From positions 1 through 64,000 of the forward strand of contig JABLUY010000100.1 of assembly GCA_013306675.1 (NCBI GenBank): a stretch of 64,000 bases of DNA, given 5' to 3'. How positions within the stretch are numbered: the stretch's first letter is position 1; each line of letters begins with the position of its first letter. Source of the stretch: Thraustochytrium sp. TN22 (lineage: Eukaryota > Sar > Bigyra > Thraustochytrida > Thraustochytriidae). The notes under the pieces are model-generated. The model saw nothing but the letters and a program-made list of their open reading frames with translations. It made no database searches and was not told the DNA's origin. This document shows, piece after piece, positions 12,176-59,804 of the stretch. The position numbers and the translations under genes are program-made.

Positions 12176-14675
12176 ATGGGCAACGCGGGCGGGGCGCTGC
12201 AGGGCCGCGCCCAGCTCGTGCCGAGCGCAAGGCGCTTCACGCTCTGTACGTATGTGGTGCTTGCGACGACACGACGAAGGAGGACGAGGAGACTGACGAA
12301 GTAGGGCGTACTGCTGCTACTGCTGCTGCTGTTGCTGTTGTTGTTGCTGCTGCTGCTGCTGCTGCTGTTGCTGCTGTTGCTGCTGCTGCTGCTGTTGCTG
12401 CTTCTGCTGCAGGTCTCAAGCGCGACGTGGACCGCGTTCGAGAGCGACATCGCGAGTGCGGATCACCGCTCGCGCTCGATGTCGCCAAGCTAGCCTTCGT
12501 GGCAGAGCTTCAGGACCAGGTACGTGCTCACGGGGCTCCGTTCGGAGGCCGGAGGCAGGGCCAGCGCTTGCTGACGGTGACGTGCCGGACGGACAGGAGG
12601 CCAAGAGCTTCTTCAAGGTGCTTGACACGGAACAACGCGGCCTCATCGATGCCTGCGAAGCACTGGCGCTGATTGCGCTCGTGTCCAGCATGACGCACGA
12701 GGAGAAGCTGGCCTTTGTGTACGGTGTGTTTGACTTTGGCGGCCGCGGCTCGCTGACCCTTGACGAAGTGGTCATTCTACTGCACGCGGTCAGCTCCGGC
12801 GCCCACAAGCTGGACGCGGCCGTGCCGTGCCCCGCGCTGGAGGACGTCGAGGTGCTCGTCAAGCGAACCTTTGCGCGCGTCGGCAAGACCATCGACGAGG
12901 AGGTCGCCGCGGAGGAGCTTGAGATCTTCTGCCGCCTCAACACGGGCGTCGCCAACGTTCTGCAGTACATCTCCGGCGCCGCGCAGCTAGGCCGTGTGGC
13001 GCCGGGCCAGCGCTGGCGCGACGCAGACTTTGACGACTTGGAGTGCGTGCTCTATGGCCGCGACGCTCCAACGCAGGACGCCGCCGGCCTCGACGACGGC
13101 CGCCCCTTCGGCAGCTGCAGCAACTTCACCTGGCGCGAGCCGCCACCAGACTACGTCGTGATTTTGCCGGACGGCGTGGTCGCCTCGCGCGTGTGCCCTG
13201 GTGTGAATTTTAATCGCGCCGTCTGCGACGCGCTCTCGGTCTGCGCGACGCGGCCTAAGCTGCTGCAGGCCCTCTTCGCAATGACTGGCCAGGAAGGCGC
13301 CGGCCGCTTCACGCTGCGCCTCTTTCACGCCGGCGCCTGGGCCCTCGTCTCGGTGGATGAGCGTCTCCTGTGCTCTCGTGCGGACTCTTGCGCGGCGTGC
13401 GCCTCGCACGCCCGCCCCTTTGCGGGCTTTTGCCACGCCGTCGACCACGCTGGCGAGGTTTGGATGCACCTCGTGGAGAAGGCGCTCGCCAAACTCCTCG
13501 GGTCCTTTTCCGCGCTCGCCTGCCTCTCCACGCTCGATGTGCTGGAGATGCTCACTGGCGGCGTCAGCGCCCTGGAATCCATCAGGACCAACTCCGTAGA
13601 GGCCTTCAAGATTCTGCGCCGCGGGGCTGGCCAGGGCGTCCTGGGCCTTGTGCGCCGCTCCGGGCCAGCGCCCGGTGCGCACCTGCGAAAGGCAGAGCGC
13701 GCCGGGGCCAAGGGTATCGTGCCTGGCGCGCTCTATGCCGTGCACGCGGTGCGTCCTACCGAGCTGCAGCTTCGCATCCCGGCCGTCGCACGTCGCGCCC
13801 ACGCCTATCACAACACTCTCTCCAAGTCTGAAAACGCAGCCTCAACTGAGCCGCCAGAGCCGCAGGAGGAGCAACCAAACGAGGAGCGCAGCGAGTCGGA
13901 GCAGGAGGAGCATCAGCCGAAACGACCAGTCGAAGGGCTCTTCACGATGCCGCTCGAAGACGCGCTCGCCATCTTTCACGAGGCCGTGGCATGCCACATC
14001 TTCGAGCTGGAGCGCTGGGCTACGCGCGTGGTGCGCGCGAGCATGGTGGCCGGCGGCCTGCTCAACGCGCCTGCCTGGGCCAACAATGACCAGCATTGCC
14101 TGGAGGTGCGCACCGAGAGCGCCACGGTGTCCGTGACCGTGTACCAGGGCGAGGTGTCGCGCGGCGCCTCGGCCTGCGCCATCTTGGCGCACGACTTTGG
14201 CAACGCGCAGGACGGCGACCAGGTCGTGCCGGCGACCATGCTGCGTAGGGGTGCGCTCCAAGGACCCGGCGCGCTGCGTGACCTCAACAAACACTCCGCT
14301 ACTCTCGAGGTCACGCTGCCCCGCGGCAAGTACGTCATTCTCGTCCTCGACGAGCGCGTGGGCCAGCGCATTGACTACGCCCTGCTTGTCCACTGCAAGC
14401 GCATTCCAGATCTCGCCACGGGAGACACGTTTGCCTTTTGGGCGCATGATGACCTCGACTGGCAGGATGCCGACGCCGCCCGCGACGACGCACTCGCCGC
14501 TGGCGCCGCAGACAAGCTCTCGCAGGGCCAAGTCGAGGCGCTCTGCAAGACGCGTCCGCTCGCCTCGCCAGACCGCGACAGCCCCTTGCACGCTCTGCTT
14601 GCCCACCTACACTGTCTCGCCGCACAGCGAGTGCTCGACCGCAGTCAGGCTCTCCTCGGCGCAAGCCCATTGTAG
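12176..14675 (+). CDS. EF-hand/calpain-like protein, probably N-myristoylated and catalytically inactive
   Basis: My model has three exons: 12176-12245, 12413-12519 and 12597-14675 (751 residues). The donors are GTACGTATG and GTACGTGCT, the acceptors are CTGCTGCAG and CGGACAG, and phases agree. Exon 1 begins MGNAGGALQG, a good myristoylation signal. Two EF-hand loops follow, DTEQRGLIDACE (about 68-79) and DFGGRGSLTLDE. Residues about 230-440 resemble the calpain protease core (FTLRLFHAGAWALVSVDERL, VEKALAKLLGSFSAL, LEMLTGG). The active site is degenerate: the QGxxGDC motif is not recognisable although a Cys remains near 269, and the GHAY histidine motif reads GALY near 435. The C-terminal part (LEVTLPRGKYVILVLDERVG) resembles the calpain beta-sandwich domain. 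A membrane-anchored, calcium-responsive, non-proteolytic role is inferred. The first exon is the least certain part. Confidence 0.7.
12310..12411. repeat. CTG/GTT trinucleotide repeat inside a predicted intron
   Basis: About 100 bases of CTG units with interspersed TTG and GTT fill the 3' half of the first predicted intron of the calpain-like gene and run directly into its acceptor (TTCTGCTGCAG). Read as protein it gives only an Ala/Val run. Confidence 0.8.
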
Positions 14676-23692: not shown

Positions 23693-25756
23693 GCGTATCC
23701 TCTGCAGCAGAAGTCGTATCCAGGACTTGGGGAATTGCCGGCGCCCGCACCGTGGCGCTCATACTACGTGGCACGTGCAACTGCGCCCCAGCGGCAGGAC
23801 CAAAGGTCGTTGCAGGTCAGGGCGTGCGCCTACTTTGCCTGCGTCTGCGCGAGTCTGCGGCCTGCTTCAACTTCTGGAGCGCTTTCAAGTTCACGGAGTG
23901 GCCATCTCGCGCGGACATGGATGTGTGCTTTCGTGTTCCTGCGCGGACTGTCGTGAGAGTTGGCAGTGATCAAGCCATCAGCACAGCGCTCGCGGCTCGC
24001 CACTCGGCCTGTGCCTGCGCCGCAGGGCCAGGACGAAAGGCAAATAACTAGTTAGCGCCGCGGCCGGCGCTGAGCGCAAGTCAAACAAGAGAAGTTTCTG
24101 AGTTAATAATCTCAAGCTGCTTGCTGCCCAATCTGCTTCTTGCTCGGAGGCCAGGCTAGCCGTAGCCTTGACGAGCTGTCATAATAGCACAAGTCGACGT
24201 GCGAGAATGAGCGAGACTGACGAAGCTCCCGAAGCTCAGAGAGACCGACCTTGCCTCTTCGCCCGACAATGCCAGCGACGTCGGGCTCGCGCCAACTCGC
24301 AGAGCGCGCGCACTGCGCAGGGCCAAAGACCGTGCTCCGCTCCCGTACGCCACGCAACGCCCACGCCTGGCTGCCCTGCACATTACTGCAGCTGAGTCCA
24401 GCGGCAGCCATCCCGTCTGAACGCTCTGGGCCTCGCCGTCGCTCTGCCCGCACCAGTGGCAGGAAGTCGCCTCCCTTCCGGATCGTCGTCGGCGATTGCT
24501 CGGGCGCGACGCCGAGGCCGGCATCAGTCCGCACGCCGGGGTCGAGCTCGAGCCCTCGCGTCCGAGCCTCCGTCTTCGCGCCTAGCCTCGCGCTCTTGAG
24601 TGCTCAGGCTCGAGCTCTCAGCTCGCGTCGACCACGACTGCCTCGTCGGTCGATGCCATGCCGTGCAGTGCTCCTCCTCCGAGTCCTCTGGCACGCCCAG
24701 GTGCTCCTCCGCCTCGTGGTGGACCGCGCAGTGGTCCTCCCCCTCGGGCCTTGTCGGCGGCTTTGCGGCACGGGCCGGCCCCGCGATCCTGCGGCCCGCC
24801 GCGCCAAGTCGCGCGCGCAGCCTCCGGCATGGCGCCGAGCGGCGCTGCGCTGCGCTGCGCAGCCGGGCAGCGCTTGGAGTTTGATGAACGACGACATGAT
24901 GATGGTCTCGATTTGGTTTGCACGAAATTTGAATTTGAAAACCAACGCGAGCTTCAAGGTTGCCAAGGCGCAGTCCCGCCAAATGCCGCCCAGCCGCGCG
25001 GAATTGTGCCGCGCGCGGCCAGCGGCGAGCGGCGGCATCCGCCCGCGCGCGGCCGGCCGCCGCCCGCGCGGCGCGGCCCGGCGGCGGCCGGCTGGCTGGA
25101 GGATGGATGGAGCGCGGGATGCGCGGGCTGGATGGAGTCGAGATGGAGGCGCGGAGCCCAGGCGCGGCCGGCCAGAACCGTATCAGGCAGGCACTGGCGG
25201 GCACTGCGCGGGCGGCGAGCGGCGGCGGAGCGGCGGGCGGCGGCAGCGGCAGCCACAGCGGCGCGCGCGCGCGCTTCCAGGTGAGCCGCCGGTGCAAGGG
25301 CCGACGCAGGCGGGAGGGATCTCGGCCTCGCGACCTGCGCGACCTGCGAGCTGGCCTGCGAGGCGCTGCGAGGCGCAGCGGGCAAGTCGGCGCGGCGCGG
25401 CGCGTGCGCGAGGCGAACGGGCAGCCACTGGCAGGACAGGCACGCGGGTGAAGTGCAGACCAGACCAGACCAGACCAGACGCGGGCCGTCCCAAATCGTG
25501 AACCGGCGACGTCGAAGCGTCGACGTGTTGAAGAGAGGACATCATCGCTAGGCCTTGAGGCAGGGCAGCCGCAGCCGCAGCCACGGCCACAGCAGAAGCG
25601 TGGCGCGCGCCACCTGGCCTCACTTTGCCAGTCATATTGACAGTCAGACCCGGAGTGAGCCGCGCCCGTAGGCAAAAAGTCGGCGGATTGATCCAAGGAG
25701 CGACCGGACCAAGCGAGCGCGAAAGCGAGCAAGGCGAAGCTAGCAAGTAAGCTAGA
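23693..25756. other. Long region without a supported gene, upstream of the fusion gene
   Basis: About 2 kb. The first third is of moderate GC content with no coding periodicity that I can see. From 24540 to 25300 it is extremely GC-rich, and open frames occur by chance. A short tandem (CAGAC)5 lies at 25456-25480. The last 250 bases, with AAAAGTCGGCGGATTGATCC, are the likely promoter and 5' UTR of the G6PDH-hexokinase gene. Confidence 0.45.
25456..25480. repeat. (CAGAC)5 microsatellite
   Basis: Five perfect 5-base units. Confidence 0.85.
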
Positions 25757-28700
25757 ATGCAGAACCCAAACGCCGAGCCCGAGACGGCGGCGCCGCCTCA
25801 GCACACGGGTGAGACGGGCGAGGAGGAGGACCTTTTCGAGGACGAAATGGCCGTCGGCATCGTGGTGGTGGGCGCCACGGGCCCCACGGCGATCAAGCGC
25901 ACGCTGCCAGCGCTCTTCCGACTGTACTGCACCGATACGCTGCCGGACGTGCGTGTGGTGTGCGCCGACGAGACGGAGCAATCCACCGAAAGCTTTCGCA
26001 AGCACCTGCGGCCCCTGCTGGGCGCCGGCGATCTGGACGGCTTTCTGGACAAGTGCGTCTACGTGTGCGGCAACGCGCTGCAGGACGATGTGGCCGAGAG
26101 GGTGGCACAGGAGCTGGAGGGCTTCGCCAACATCATGGTATACCTGAACGCGCTGCAGCTCGATGAAAGCTTCGACCCCAAGCCGCTGGCTAGCCGCCTG
26201 CGCGCCATCAACCAGAAGCGCGCCGGCAGTTGGGTGCAGCGCCAGGCCAACAAGCTGCGCCTGCACCGCAAGAAGTCCGCCGGCTGGCTGCGCTGCGTCG
26301 TGGAGAAGCCGCGGCACTTTGACCTGCGCTCCGCCGAGCACCTCACGCGCAAGCTCAAGGAGGCCTTCGAGGGCGAGGAGAACATCTTCCGCCTCGACCA
26401 CTTCGTCGGCAAGGAGATGGTGCAGAACATTGTCGCCGTGCGTTTCGCGAACCGCTTCCTCGAGCCCGCCTGGAACCGCGAGAACATCAACGCCGTCGTC
26501 ATCAGCTGCCGCGAGACGCAACTGGTTGACAACGCCGCGATCTTCGACCGCTTCGGCATCATCCGCGACATGCTCGTGGACCACCTGACGCACATGATGG
26601 CGCTCATCGCCATGGAGGCGCCCGCAAACCTGACCGACGGCCAGAGCGTGCATGACGAGGTCGTCAAGGTGTTGCGCTGCGTCGAGCCGGCCAAGCTCGA
26701 GGATACCGTCCTCGGCCAGTACAAGGGCTACATGGACCAGGAGGGCGCCGACCCGGACTCCAAGACGCCGACCTTTGCGCTCTGCGTCATGTACATTGAC
26801 AACGACCGCTGGCGCGGCGTGCCCTTCATCCTCAAGGCCGGCAAGGGCATGTACGAGCGCCGCACCGACGTGCGCGTCCAGTTCAAGGCGCCCGAGTACG
26901 AGCTCTTCCCGCCCAGCCGCGGCGGCGGCCCGCTCAACGAGCTCGTCATCCGCGTGCAGCCCAACTCCGACATTTACATGAAGATGATGCGTAAGGCGCC
27001 CGGTCTCAAGCTCAGTGTGGCCGCCACCAAGCTCAGCCTCATCGGCGGCGAGCCCTCGCGCAATTTCGACATCGTCGACCGCCCGGCCGCGGGCATGCGC
27101 CACGCCAACTCGCAGACCAACCTCGCCAGCGTCGCCTCGCGCCCGATCGAGCAAAGCCTGCGCAGTTTCACCGGCTCCGGCGACGACAACGACGCTGGCG
27201 CCGGCGCCGGCGCCGGCGGCCGCTTCACCGGCGCGCGCAGCGCCTCGGTCACCGAGTTCCCCGTCTTCAACGCCTACACGCCCGACGCCTATGAGCGCCT
27301 CATCTACGACGTCTTCGCGGGCGACAAGTCCTCCTTCACGCGCGGCGATGAGGTCGAGGCCATCTGGGCCGCCTTCGACCAGCTCCTCCACGACATCGAC
27401 TCTGGCGACTCCTTCGACGGCGTCGACATCCACCAGTACGTGGTCGGCAGCCGCGGCCCCTCGGCCGCCTACGCGCTCATGTCGCACGCCGGCTTCCAGG
27501 GCTACAAGCTCGAGTCCGAGCTCCTCGGCTTCAAGCCGCGCACCGTCTTCCAGGACTTCACCGAGAAGTTCTCCATCACCGGCTCCCAGATGGAGACCAT
27601 CGCCGGCGACTTTCTCCGCGAGATGCGCAAGGGCCTGCGCGGCGAGGAGTCCTCCTGCCGCATGCTCCCCAGCTTCGTCACCGAGATGCCCTCCAGCCGC
27701 GAGAAGGGCGTCTTCTATGCGCTCGACCTCGGCGGCACCAACTTCCGCGTCTCTCGCTTCAGCTTCGATGGCCTCGGCAACGCCAGCAACACCGACGAGC
27801 GCAAGTACACCGTGCCGGACTCCAAGATGACCGGCACCGCCGAGGACCTCTTCGACTTCCTTGCCGAGTGCGTCGCCTCGCTCGACACCGAGGTCGGCGA
27901 CGGCGGCGCCCGCAACAACTACTACGGCTTCACCTTCTCCTTTCCCACGCTCCAGACCGCCATTGACCGCGGGACCCTCATCAGCTGGACCAAGGGCTTC
28001 TCCACCGAGGGCGTCGTCGACCACGACGTCGTCGAGCTCCTGCGCGACGCCTTCCAGCGCCGCGGCTTTGACGGCGAGATTACCGCCCTTGTCAACGACA
28101 CCGTCGGCACCCTCGTCTCCGCCGCTTACGTCGACCCGACCACCAAGATCGGTGTCATCCTCGGCACCGGTACCAACGCCGCCTACGTAGAGCGTGTCGA
28201 CAACATCACCAAGCTCGACGAGGATCACCGCATGCGCGGCGGCGACATGGTCATCAACATCGAGTGGGGCAACTTCTCCGCCGGTTCCAACATGCTCCCG
28301 CTCTCCGAGGTGGACATTGAGATCGACGAGCACTCACGCAACAAGGGCCAGCAGCCCTTCGAGAAGATGATCTCCGGCATGTACCTGGGAGAGCTCGCTC
28401 GCCTCATCCTCAAGCGCATGTTCGACGCCGGCGAGATCTGGGCCTCTGCAAGCGTCCCGAGCCTCATCCACCAGCGCGACTCCTTCCCTACGCGCTACCT
28501 CTCCGACATCGAGTACGACCTTTCGGACGACCTCGCCGTCGTCCGCCACGTCGAGGAGACCTACGGTATCAAGGGCTCCTCGCTCGAGGACCGCATCAAG
28601 CTCAAGGAGGTCTCCGGCATGGTCATCCAGCGCGCCGCCCGCCTCACCGCCGCCGCCATCGCGGCGGTCGCTCGCCAGATGGGTTCCAACGTCGTCACCG

Positions 28701-28870
28701 TCGGCATTGACGGCTCCGTCTTCGAGCACCACCCCTCCTTCCGCCTGCGTCTCATGCAGGGCCTCGGTGAGCTCGCCATCGAGGCCAAGGTCATGCTCGC
28801 CCGCGATGGCTCTGGCCAGGGCGCCGCGCTCATCTCGCACGGCGCCCTCATCGCCCGCGAGAGGCTCTGA
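25757..28870 (+). CDS. Glucose-6-phosphate 1-dehydrogenase fused to hexokinase
   Basis: This is one unbroken 1037-residue frame from the ATG at 25757. Residues about 33-545 are a G6PDH. They show the nucleotide-binding GATGPTAIKRTLPALF, substrate-binding VEKP, the catalytic-histidine motif RLDHFVGKEMVQN (about 210-222), RFANRFLEPAWNRENI, FDRFGIIRDMLVDHL and the late YTPDAYERLIYDVFAGD. Residues about 590-1035 are a hexokinase: MLPSFVTEMP, phosphate-1 loop ALDLGGTNFRV (about 653-663), the sugar-binding segment FSFPTLQTA, catalytic Asp in NDTVGTL (about 781), and GTGTNAAYVE. Both halves look complete. The chain would phosphorylate glucose and oxidise the product, feeding the oxidative pentose phosphate pathway with NADPH in the cytosol, since no targeting peptide is seen. 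The usual GDLA of the cofactor site is GPTA here. A low-complexity insert of about 70 residues lies before YTPDAY. Activity of each half is inferred. Confidence 0.93.
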   Translation: MQNPNAEPETAAPPQHTGETGEEEDLFEDEMAVGIVVVGATGPTAIKRTLPALFRLYCTDTLPDVRVVCADETEQSTESFRKHLRPLLGAGDLDGFLDKCVYVCGNALQDDVAERVAQELEGFANIMVYLNALQLDESFDPKPLASRLRAINQKRAGSWVQRQANKLRLHRKKSAGWLRCVVEKPRHFDLRSAEHLTRKLKEAFEGEENIFRLDHFVGKEMVQNIVAVRFANRFLEPAWNRENINAVVISCRETQLVDNAAIFDRFGIIRDMLVDHLTHMMALIAMEAPANLTDGQSVHDEVVKVLRCVEPAKLEDTVLGQYKGYMDQEGADPDSKTPTFALCVMYIDNDRWRGVPFILKAGKGMYERRTDVRVQFKAPEYELFPPSRGGGPLNELVIRVQPNSDIYMKMMRKAPGLKLSVAATKLSLIGGEPSRNFDIVDRPAAGMRHANSQTNLASVASRPIEQSLRSFTGSGDDNDAGAGAGAGGRFTGARSASVTEFPVFNAYTPDAYERLIYDVFAGDKSSFTRGDEVEAIWAAFDQLLHDIDSGDSFDGVDIHQYVVGSRGPSAAYALMSHAGFQGYKLESELLGFKPRTVFQDFTEKFSITGSQMETIAGDFLREMRKGLRGEESSCRMLPSFVTEMPSSREKGVFYALDLGGTNFRVSRFSFDGLGNASNTDERKYTVPDSKMTGTAEDLFDFLAECVASLDTEVGDGGARNNYYGFTFSFPTLQTAIDRGTLISWTKGFSTEGVVDHDVVELLRDAFQRRGFDGEITALVNDTVGTLVSAAYVDPTTKIGVILGTGTNAAYVERVDNITKLDEDHRMRGGDMVINIEWGNFSAGSNMLPLSEVDIEIDEHSRNKGQQPFEKMISGMYLGELARLILKRMFDAGEIWASASVPSLIHQRDSFPTRYLSDIEYDLSDDLAVVRHVEETYGIKGSSLEDRIKLKEVSGMVIQRAARLTAAAIAAVARQMGSNVVTVGIDGSVFEHHPSFRLRLMQGLGELAIEAKVMLARDGSGQGAALISHGALIARERL

Positions 28871-40826: not shown

Positions 40827-42368
40827 ATGGACCGCGGGCAGCACCTGCACGAGACGCTGCGGCTGGACACGCTGTCCAAGACCGGACGCATCCGGTACAT
40901 GATGCTGTCTGCGGTTGGGCTGGCGCTGGCGCTGGTAGCCGGGCTTACCGGCCCGCAGGCGTACCAGGAGAAGACCCCGACCGGCGAGTACGGCACGAAC
41001 TTCAACCTGGCGGAGCAGACCTTCTCGCACGGGTGGGAGTTCGTGGTGAACGAGTTCTCGAACGAGTTCGGCCTGCTCTTCGTGCCCAAGCCGAAATCGG
41101 ACGACCTCACGGACCGCACCTTTGTGCGGGACCTGCACCTGAATGTAGAGCTGGTTGGCACCTCGGAGGCCGGCGAGTCGGAGCGCCTGGTCAACGAGAC
41201 GGTCGTGCGTCGGGTGCACTGTGCCAACCGTGGCGGCAAGGCGGAGTGCGACGAGGTGCTCGTCTTCTGGGACTCCTTTCTGCAGTTCCGCCTGTACACG
41301 TGGAACGTGAGCATCGCCAAGGTCTCCTCCAGCGAGGCGGAGTGGCTGGAGTCCGTGGACTTCTTCTTCCGCTACGAAAATTTGGACTTTGCCGTCTTCC
41401 AGCTGCGCGTCAACTATATCTGCTTCGGCGTCTCGATCGCGGCGCTCGCGCTCTGGTACCTGGTGTGCAAGCACGACTCGCGCCGTGCCGCGTCGCGCAC
41501 CGAGCCAGGCCAGGACCTGGAGGTCCCAAGCATGGCCCTCAGCGACCGCCGCTGCGGCGGATGCTGCGGCGGATGCTGCAGGTGCTGCTGCGGCCCCTTC
41601 CGCACGCCGACGCAAAGGTGGATCTGCGCGCTCATCATCGGCGTCTGCATGTACAACCAGCCGTTCCTCGCCTGCCAGTACATGGACAACGACACCCTCC
41701 GCGCTTTCTTCATCCTGCTTTCGGTCGTCATGCAGCTGGCTTTCTTCGCCATCCTCATGGTCTTTTGGCTCGAGGTCTTCGCCTCCATGTACACCTCGCC
41801 GCCCTACTCGTACCTCTTCCACGCGCCCAAGATCGCCTTTGGCGTCGTCTTTTGGGTCTCCACCAGCGTCGTCTATTGCATCACTTCCTACACGCGCAAC
41901 TTCTCCTACCTTCGCGACTGGAGTGAGGACGACGACCTCTTGGTGGCTGTGGCTGCCATCGGCTACGCGCTCGGCGCCGTCTACGCACTCTGGATCTCCT
42001 TCGAGATCTTTTGCGCTCTCGGCCACCTCATGCGTCTCAAGGGCATCACCATGAAGCTCATCTTCGTGGGCCACCTCTGGCGCATCGTGGCCGTCGTCAT
42101 CGGGCTCTTCGCCGGCTTCATTGCCTTCCAGGACGTTCGCTTCACGCACTATTACTACTTCTTCCAGCTCCTCTTCACCATCTACGTGCTCGAGGTCATC
42201 TATCTCTACCAGCCCGTCGCCTACACGGCCATGAACCCGGGCTCCTCGCACAAGGGCCTGCCGGAGTCTGGCCTTGAGCTCAAGCGCCAGGCTGTCCTCC
42301 CGAGCGACCGCGAGCGGGCGCAGACCCGGCCGGACGGCCAGACCGAGATTTCGCTCGCCGAGATTTGA
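40827..42368 (+). CDS. Wntless/TMEM181-like seven-helix membrane protein
   Basis: The ATG at 40827 in a good context (GACACCATGG) gives 513 residues. Open sequence upstream lacks an ATG. A first hydrophobic helix (MMLSAVGLALALVAGL) is followed by about 170 lumenal residues with strand-rich sequence and two cysteines (VHCANRGGKAEC), resembling the GOLD-like domain of Wntless and TMEM181 proteins. Then come a helix (YICFGVSIAALALWYLVC), a cytosolic Cys cluster (CGGCCGGCCRCCC) that could be palmitoylated, and six more helices, with MYNQPFLACQY after the next one. The tail is hydrophilic. In animals these proteins carry cargo or act as receptor-like proteins in the secretory pathway. Here the function is only inferred from topology and weak similarity. 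Confidence 0.65.
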   Translation: MDRGQHLHETLRLDTLSKTGRIRYMMLSAVGLALALVAGLTGPQAYQEKTPTGEYGTNFNLAEQTFSHGWEFVVNEFSNEFGLLFVPKPKSDDLTDRTFVRDLHLNVELVGTSEAGESERLVNETVVRRVHCANRGGKAECDEVLVFWDSFLQFRLYTWNVSIAKVSSSEAEWLESVDFFFRYENLDFAVFQLRVNYICFGVSIAALALWYLVCKHDSRRAASRTEPGQDLEVPSMALSDRRCGGCCGGCCRCCCGPFRTPTQRWICALIIGVCMYNQPFLACQYMDNDTLRAFFILLSVVMQLAFFAILMVFWLEVFASMYTSPPYSYLFHAPKIAFGVVFWVSTSVVYCITSYTRNFSYLRDWSEDDDLLVAVAAIGYALGAVYALWISFEIFCALGHLMRLKGITMKLIFVGHLWRIVAVVIGLFAGFIAFQDVRFTHYYYFFQLLFTIYVLEVIYLYQPVAYTAMNPGSSHKGLPESGLELKRQAVLPSDRERAQTRPDGQTEISLAEI

Positions 42369-58334: not shown

Positions 58335-59804
58335 TCAGGCCTGGGTCTGAGAGCGCTCGGAGAGGCCCTGGAGGGCGTCGACGACGCGGTCAATGGCATC
58401 TTCGAGGTCATCGGCGGGGGTCTCGGGGACGGGGCTGGCCTCGAGCGCGGCGTAAGCCTCCTCCGCGAAGGCGCCGTCGATTCGGACGATGAGGGGGAGG
58501 TCAAAGTAGGACTCCTCGTCGCAAGCGATGAGGGCCTGCGCGACGTCATCGCAGCGCGTGAAGCCACCGAAGACGTTGACGAGGATGACCTTGACCTGGG
58601 GGTCGTCGCGCAGCAAGCGGACGGCGGTGCGCATGGCCTCGCCGGCGTCGACGCGGTGCGCGGTGCCGATGTTGACCATGGGGCCGGGCGTGACGCCGGC
58701 GTCGAAGAGCATGTCGCGAGTTGCCATGCCGAGGCCGCCGCCGTTGACGATGCAGCCCACCGGGCCTGGGAGTGGGATGAGGCCGAGACCGGCCTCGCGC
58801 GCCTCGCGCGCGGCCGGGTGCATGTCGTCGTTGGTGTCGACGGCGCGCGCGGTGAGCTCCCGCTGGCGGAAGGCGGCGGCGTCGTCGAGCTCCATGTGCA
58901 CCTCGAGGCAGGCGACGTCCTCCTGGTCGGGCTCGGCGCCGCTGTGCGTGGCCTTGACCTCGGCGAGCGAGTCCGTCTCAAGCAGGAGCGCGTCGGAGCC
59001 GATGAACATGCAGTAGAGGTACTCGATCTGCGCCTGGGCGGCCGGGACGTTCTCGCGCTTGAAGCCCATGGCCTCGGCCAGGAAGGAGGTCTGCGCTTCG
59101 GATGGCCCGTGGATGATGTCGATGGTGTCCGAGAGCACACGCACCTCCTCCTCCCGCGGCAGCGTCTTGACCTCGGTCGGGTCCGCGGCGCGCTGGTTCT
59201 CCTCGGCGCCGAGCTTGGCCGCCTCGGGCGTCTGCTGCTCTTCGGCACCAGGCTGCGCGGCGTCCGGTAGTCGCCAGGCGCGGATGCGCGGACCGGTCAG
59301 CTCCGCCTTGAGCTCGATGGAGAGCCCGAACCGCGTGCGCGGCCGCACGAGCTCCTCCAAGACCACCTTGGCCGGCGGCGCGGCCTGCTTCTTCTCCTGT
59401 CCGTCCCCGGCCTCGGCCTCGGGCGGTTCGAGCCACGCTTGGACGCGCTCCAGCACCTGGGCCGGGTCGTCCGACACGAGGGTCTCCTCGCCCTCGCGCG
59501 ACGCCCTGAAGCTCGCGCCCGGGTGGTCCGCGAGCACGTCGTCCAGGAAGCCCTGCGCCTCGTCGACCTTGGCGACCCAGGCCGTCCTCGGTGCGTTCAC
59601 GTTGTACCGCTGCATAAAGTCGCGGCTCACCAGGCCGTCCACCTGCAGGCCGCGCGTCTGGCCGGTCCCGGCGGCTGCGGCGGCCGCGCCGGCCTGCGTG
59701 CTCCACCGCGCCGAGGTGCCCTTGAGCGGCGCGACGCGCCAGCCCGAGGCTCTCGCCGCCGCCATGCGCAGCCGGCCCAGCCCGCTCCGCCACACGCTCA
59801 GCAT
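58335..59804 (-). CDS. Divergent succinyl-CoA ligase beta-like protein, probably mitochondrial
   Basis: The ATG at 59804 gives 489 residues. The first 40 residues are Arg/Ala/Ser-rich without acids (MLSVWRSGLGRLRMAAARAS), a good mitochondrial targeting sequence. The C-terminal third matches the ligase-CoA domain of succinyl-CoA synthetase beta: GPVGCIVNGGGLGMATRDML, then VRLLRDDPQVKVILVNVFGG and FTRCDDVAQALIA. In the ATP-grasp half, the EINP magnesium motif is not seen (LLLETDSLAEV instead), and the DVGGGA segment reads NIGTAHRVDAGE. An inserted acidic/Gln-rich segment (about 185-225) is unusual. The true enzyme makes ATP or GTP from succinyl-CoA. Here catalytic residues seem lost, so a regulatory or structural paralogue is more likely. 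This depends on alignment by eye. Confidence 0.75.
   Translation of the reverse strand: MLSVWRSGLGRLRMAAARASGWRVAPLKGTSARWSTQAGAAAAAAGTGQTRGLQVDGLVSRDFMQRYNVNAPRTAWVAKVDEAQGFLDDVLADHPGASFRASREGEETLVSDDPAQVLERVQAWLEPPEAEAGDGQEKKQAAPPAKVVLEELVRPRTRFGLSIELKAELTGPRIRAWRLPDAAQPGAEEQQTPEAAKLGAEENQRAADPTEVKTLPREEEVRVLSDTIDIIHGPSEAQTSFLAEAMGFKRENVPAAQAQIEYLYCMFIGSDALLLETDSLAEVKATHSGAEPDQEDVACLEVHMELDDAAAFRQRELTARAVDTNDDMHPAAREAREAGLGLIPLPGPVGCIVNGGGLGMATRDMLFDAGVTPGPMVNIGTAHRVDAGEAMRTAVRLLRDDPQVKVILVNVFGGFTRCDDVAQALIACDEESYFDLPLIVRIDGAFAEEAYAALEASPVPETPADDLEDAIDRVVDALQGLSERSQTQA

Follow-up and report, generated by a model that had tools for sequence, protein, structure and literature searches.

Does a single reading frame in which a glucose-6-phosphate dehydrogenase (G6PDH) homologue precedes a hexokinase encode an enzyme that couples glucose phosphorylation to NADPH production, as a sequence-only reading of this locus had proposed? 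The gene (25757-28870, + strand) lies in a 64,000-nt window, the whole stretch of DNA analysed, which contains 0 N and has a G+C content of 66.7%. It runs from ATG to TGA in one frame without an intron and encodes 1037 amino acids. Pfam domains occur along the chain in the order G6PD_N (84.6 bits, cut-off 22.1), G6PD_C (265.9 bits, cut-off 27), Hexokinase_1 (211.3 bits) and Hexokinase_2 (238.3 bits), all exceeding their curated cut-offs, and the E-values of 5e-79 for G6PD_C and 1.1e-70 for Hexokinase_2 exclude chance matches. The motifs RLDHFVGKE, ALDLGGTNFRV and NDTVGTL, pointed out earlier, are all present. Between the end of the G6PDH alignment, at about residue 583, and the first aligned hexokinase residue, 599-604, lie about 14 residues. 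A codon-usage score derived from six further genes of the window and applied to segments of the fusion gene gave 0.52 to 0.90 bits per codon in the fusion frame across both halves and the junction, the remaining two forward frames scoring between -0.98 and -1.76; at the junction alone the values were 0.90 and, for the other forward frames, -1.76 and -1.48. Open reading frame, Pfam and codon use all agree with the earlier description of one unbroken frame holding G6PDH and then hexokinase, and the fusion is confirmed at the DNA level. The coordinates of its parts are collected in Table 1.

Around the fusion gene lie genes for SRP54, MLH1, a gamma-tubulin complex component, PP2A-A-like HEAT repeats, a UBA2-like SUMO E1, a Wntless-like membrane protein and a calpain-type protease, a set that indicates the nuclear genome of a eukaryote with many intron-less genes. 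The calpain-type cysteine protease domain (12594-14549, +) is preceded by a weak EF-hand-like match, and the Wntless-like transmembrane domain (40947-42365, +) is accompanied by a weak TMEM181 GOLD-like match, in a genome that is compact and intron-poor. A further frame (58338-59696, - strand) contains a CoA-ligase domain of the type found in succinyl-CoA ligase or ATP-citrate lyase and matches ATP-grasp weakly. An antisense open reading frame of 1269 codons (24524-28333, - strand) covers most of the fusion gene; it was rejected as a gene because the codon statistics of the reverse frames are below zero almost everywhere, and it is a by-product of high GC3.

Table 1. Features of the fusion gene, with positions in the 64,000-nt window and residue numbers of the encoded chain
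Feature	Position	Strand	Evidence
Whole fusion gene, no intron	25757..28870	+	ORF, Pfam, codon use
Acidic N-terminal extension, residues 1-33, low confidence, no obvious targeting peptide	25757..25855	+	Sequence; pLDDT about 45-51
G6PD_N Rossmann domain, residues 34-206, fold predicted intact, coenzyme motifs altered	25856..26374	+	Pfam 84.6 bits; pLDDT about 95 over much
Dinucleotide fingerprint GxxGDLA changed to GATGPTA, residues 39-45	25871..25891	+	Alignment
Glu72 replacing Arg72 (2'-phosphate ligand)	25970..25972	+	Alignment; role from PMC11448927, PMC8973466
YLALPP loop replaced, with 7-residue insertion, residues 124-150	26126..26206	+	Alignment
EKPxG changed to EKPRH, residues 183-187; Lys171, Pro172 kept	26303..26317	+	Alignment; role from PMC11448927
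G6PD_C domain with G6P pocket, residues 207-584	26375..27508	+	Pfam 265.9 bits; Foldseek best match human G6PD-G6P complex 2bhl
Substrate motif RLDHFVGKE, residues 212-220; Asp200, His201, Lys205 kept	26390..26416	+	Alignment
DMLVDH, residues 271-276; Asp258 and catalytic His263 kept	26567..26584	+	Alignment
Low-complexity Ala/Gly/Ser-rich insertion, 64 residues (437-500), predicted disordered, inside G6PD_C	27065..27256	+	Alignment, pLDDT
Junction between enzymes, about 14 residues	27509..27550	+	Alignment ends, Pfam, codon statistics
Hexokinase (Hexokinase_1 and Hexokinase_2), active-site residues kept	27551..28846	+	Pfam; alignment with human HK1

The hexokinase half contains both hexokinase domains (PF00349/PF03727) at full length and shares 42.7% identity with the catalytic C-terminal half of human HK1 across 417 residues. 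Alignment shows that HK1 residues Asp532, Thr536, Ser603, Lys621, Asn656, Asp657, Asn683, Glu708 and Glu742 are all conserved in the fusion, and the catalytic Asp (Asp781) and Lys746 are retained among the catalytic, sugar-binding and phosphate-loop residues checked. Only two of the positions checked differ, with Ser in place of Thr863 and Gln in place of Lys899 (human numbering). Given the roles of these HK1 residues (catalytic Asp, sugar ligands, ATP ligands), the C-terminal half is best taken as an active hexokinase (EC 2.7.1.1).

The G6PDH half has kept its substrate pocket. All ten G6P-binding and catalytic residues scored are unchanged (human Lys171, Pro172, Asp200, His201, Lys205, Glu239, Asp258, His263, Lys360 and Gln395). 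Two further changes, Arg246 to Asn at a position invariant in 164/164 references and Asn262 to Asp, may alter G6P binding itself. At the structural-NADP+ site Arg393, Tyr401, Lys403, Arg487 and Arg370 are kept, Lys366 and Arg357 are replaced by Arg and Lys, respectively, and Asp421 is lost. The conserved dimer-interface residue Lys407 is retained as Lys413. The 64-residue insertion follows the strand beside the structural-NADP region and contains RSAS- and RHANS-like stretches that are candidate phosphorylation sites.

The coenzyme site is altered. Six of eight coenzyme-site residues are lost (Asp42 to Pro, Leu43 to Thr, Arg72 to Glu, Tyr147 to Leu, Phe173 to Arg and Gly174 to His), position 147 sitting in a poorly aligning loop, and Leu43 and Gly174 are invariant in 164/164 references. 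The reference set of 166 comprised 164 G6PDHs from bacterial genomes, plasmids and viral-collection contigs together with the human and Crithidia enzymes from PDB matches; it is mostly bacterial, with human and Crithidia as the only eukaryotes apart from a T. cruzi alignment of the N-domain. At the same eight positions 140 of the 166 retain every residue, 21 lack one and 5 lack two, the maximum being two; these positions, like the ten G6P positions, were selected with the departures already in view. A fairer test than hand-picked residues is a leave-one-out count that takes in every column conserved in at least 95% of the 164 references. In the N-domain the fusion departs at 4/12 such columns (reference mean 0.22, maximum 2) and in the C-domain at 9/53 (mean 1.1, maximum 7). 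The C-domain is thus also more divergent than any reference, though not at the G6P ligands.

The replaced residues have defined roles in the human enzyme, where the adenine ribose and the bisphosphate are bound through backbone NH groups of Gly41 and Asp42 (PMC11448927), Arg72 lies at the coenzyme 2'-phosphate (PMC11448927, PMC8973466), Pro143 stacks onto the adenine (PMC8973466) and the EKPxG motif allows Lys171 to place both G6P and the nicotinamide ribose (PMC11448927). A proline at position 42 would have no main-chain NH to give to the coenzyme. The glycines and the alanine of GxxGxxA are retained, so some residual or changed dinucleotide binding is possible. The TIGR00871 zwf equivalog score is 350.6, under the cut-off of 400.6, a shortfall that the insertion may explain in part. 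The chain has the Pfam domains, the catalytic dyad and the G6P ligands of an NADP+ G6PDH and lacks the GxxGDLx fingerprint, Arg72 and EKPxG. Because these defining motifs are missing and the zwf score is below its cut-off, the chain is, on its residues, not classed as a functional NADP+ G6PDH (EC 1.1.1.49); it is placed in the G6PDH superfamily and the hexokinase family.

These observations bear on the proposed link to NADPH, for which the G6PDH half had been taken as a working dehydrogenase from its substrate motif and the altered coenzyme motifs had been overlooked. The fusion itself stands, but coupling of glucose phosphorylation to NADPH is weakened by the replacement of coenzyme-site residues alongside a complete set of G6P-site residues. 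A bifunctional enzyme, whose hexokinase would yield G6P for oxidation with NADP+ to give NADPH on the same chain, would be in keeping with the catalytic dyad, the G6P residues and a Rossmann fold predicted intact, and there are precedents for fusing other oxidative pentose phosphate steps, G6PD-6PGL and G6PD-6PGD (PMC3148214). We nevertheless consider it improbable in view of the substitutions at positions 42, 43, 72, 173 and 174 and the rewritten YLALPP loop, where no reference loses more than two of the eight residues.

Alternatively, the dehydrogenase half could be active with NAD+ or another coenzyme. In the alignment, the end of the second Rossmann strand reads Asp71-Glu72 in the fusion in place of Ala-Arg. 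Rossmann folds that use NAD+ usually have an acidic residue at this strand end, and the Asp-Glu pair would favour a free ribose 2'-hydroxyl; the Rossmann glycines are also retained. The loss of the otherwise invariant Leu43 and Gly174 argues against a switch of coenzyme, as does the broken EKPxG motif, the lysine of which the dual-specificity Leuconostoc enzyme uses in both its NAD+- and NADP+-bound forms (PMC11448927); we regard such an activity as distinctly unlikely.

To place these changes in a structural context we used an AlphaFold2 model built on 76 sequences, which follows the alignment and cannot alone show coenzyme binding or its absence. The model has a pLDDT of 80.7 and a pTM of 0.80, with the Rossmann domain mostly at pLDDT of about 95 and the lowest confidence at the termini, in the loop 161-170 and in residues 434-504, which hold the insertion. 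Foldseek comparison with the best human G6PD entries gave TM-scores, normalized by target length, of 0.86-0.88. The intact predicted fold argues against random decay. A gene in the course of losing its G6PDH half would fit the drift of R246 and other conserved C-domain positions, but this, like an assembly error joining two genes, is very improbable considering the unbroken frame, gene-like codon use throughout, a junction of only about 14 residues, the high confidence of the predicted fold and the retention of all scored G6P residues. A folded domain in which one pocket is kept and another selectively changed suggests repurposing more than decay.

We therefore tentatively favor, at a probability of roughly 45%, an active hexokinase that carries a G6P-binding pseudo-dehydrogenase as a regulatory domain. 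The C-terminal half would phosphorylate sugar with ATP, while the N-terminal half, a folded relative of G6PDH, would bind G6P and would bind NADP+ poorly at the catalytic site. By sensing or holding the product of the kinase, the N-terminal half could regulate the hexokinase. Both G6P binding and the loss of NADP+ catalysis are inferred here from residue roles. Somewhat more tentatively, a G6PDH may have been recruited as an allosteric sensor for the upstream enzyme, having lost its coenzyme site and kept its substrate pocket, so that it would report G6P, and perhaps also NADP+ at the structural site, to the hexokinase. Against a sensor speaks the conservation of the catalytic His263 and of Asp200, which a pure sensor need not have kept. 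The pseudo-G6PDH half could instead serve as a tether, forming hetero-oligomers with a separate catalytic G6PDH and bringing the hexokinase and its product to that enzyme. The retained dimer-interface lysine and most of the structural-NADP residues would suit this role, and G6PDHs show activity in dimeric and tetrameric form (PMC11448927), but the window holds no canonical G6PDH elsewhere; we judge such a tether unlikely. Should the regulatory reading hold, the chain would represent an independent route to product control of hexokinase through a fold unlike the mammalian one. Chains of this kind, annotated from domains alone, may be miscounted as NADPH producers in metabolic models.

No confirmed related fusion turned up among viral contigs, queried with both the full chain and the hexokinase half, or among genome contigs, for which the G6PDH half served as query. 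Plasmid records contained separate zwf and hexokinase genes only, and nowhere was 80% of the chain covered. In 160 loci from two alignment-led scans, which served as G6PDH references, no open reading frame matched the hexokinase half, and the 64,000-nt window holds no second G6PDH or hexokinase gene. The portions of the Schizochytrium literature consulted name G6PD and hexokinase separately and do not mention a fusion. The earlier expectation that no G6PDH-hexokinase fusion had been described is borne out across the 5.39 million open-access papers searched, on which alone novelty was judged, including a dedicated survey of eukaryotic G6PD fusions in which hexokinase appears only as the preceding enzyme (PMC3148214). 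The same fusion may exist unannounced in other protists.

According to that survey, G6PD has been fused to 6PGL three times independently and to 6PGD in Phaeodactylum; the known forms are H6PD (G6PD-6PGL), the apicomplexan 6PGL-G6PD, G6PD-6PGL of Giardia and Trichomonas, and the Phaeodactylum G6PD-6PGD, which corrects the earlier attribution of a G6PD-6PGL fusion to diatoms (PMC3148214). Like these, the present chain joins a G6PDH-family domain to an enzyme of the same route. In contrast, the partner here is the preceding enzyme, hexokinase, placed after the G6PDH half; the coenzyme site looks disabled, and the Pfam scan of the chain revealed no 6PGL or 6PGD domain. On the literature searched, what is new is the fusion of a G6PDH homologue to the upstream kinase, while G6PDH fused to 6PGL or 6PGD was known already.

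Compared with human G6PD and trypanosomatid G6PDH, the fusion shares the two-domain fold, the G6P pocket, the catalytic Asp-His dyad and most structural-NADP residues and differs in the fingerprint, Arg72, EKPxG, the YLALPP loop, the 64-residue insertion and the appended hexokinase. The C-terminal half aligns over nearly the full length of the 50-kDa hexokinases of yeast and plants, with active-site residues kept as checked against human HK1, and is distinguished from them by the G6PDH-like half of about 585 residues in front. A functional analogy may be drawn to the mammalian 100-kDa hexokinases, in which the N-terminal half binds G6P and regulates. Like hexokinases I-III, the fusion is a chain of about 100 kDa with a C-terminal catalytic hexokinase and a proposed G6P-binding N-terminal half. 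Its N-terminal half is a G6PDH homologue of unrelated fold and not a second hexokinase, and Pfam finds one hexokinase only, without tandem halves. The chain may work like a mammalian 100-kDa hexokinase but is not one.
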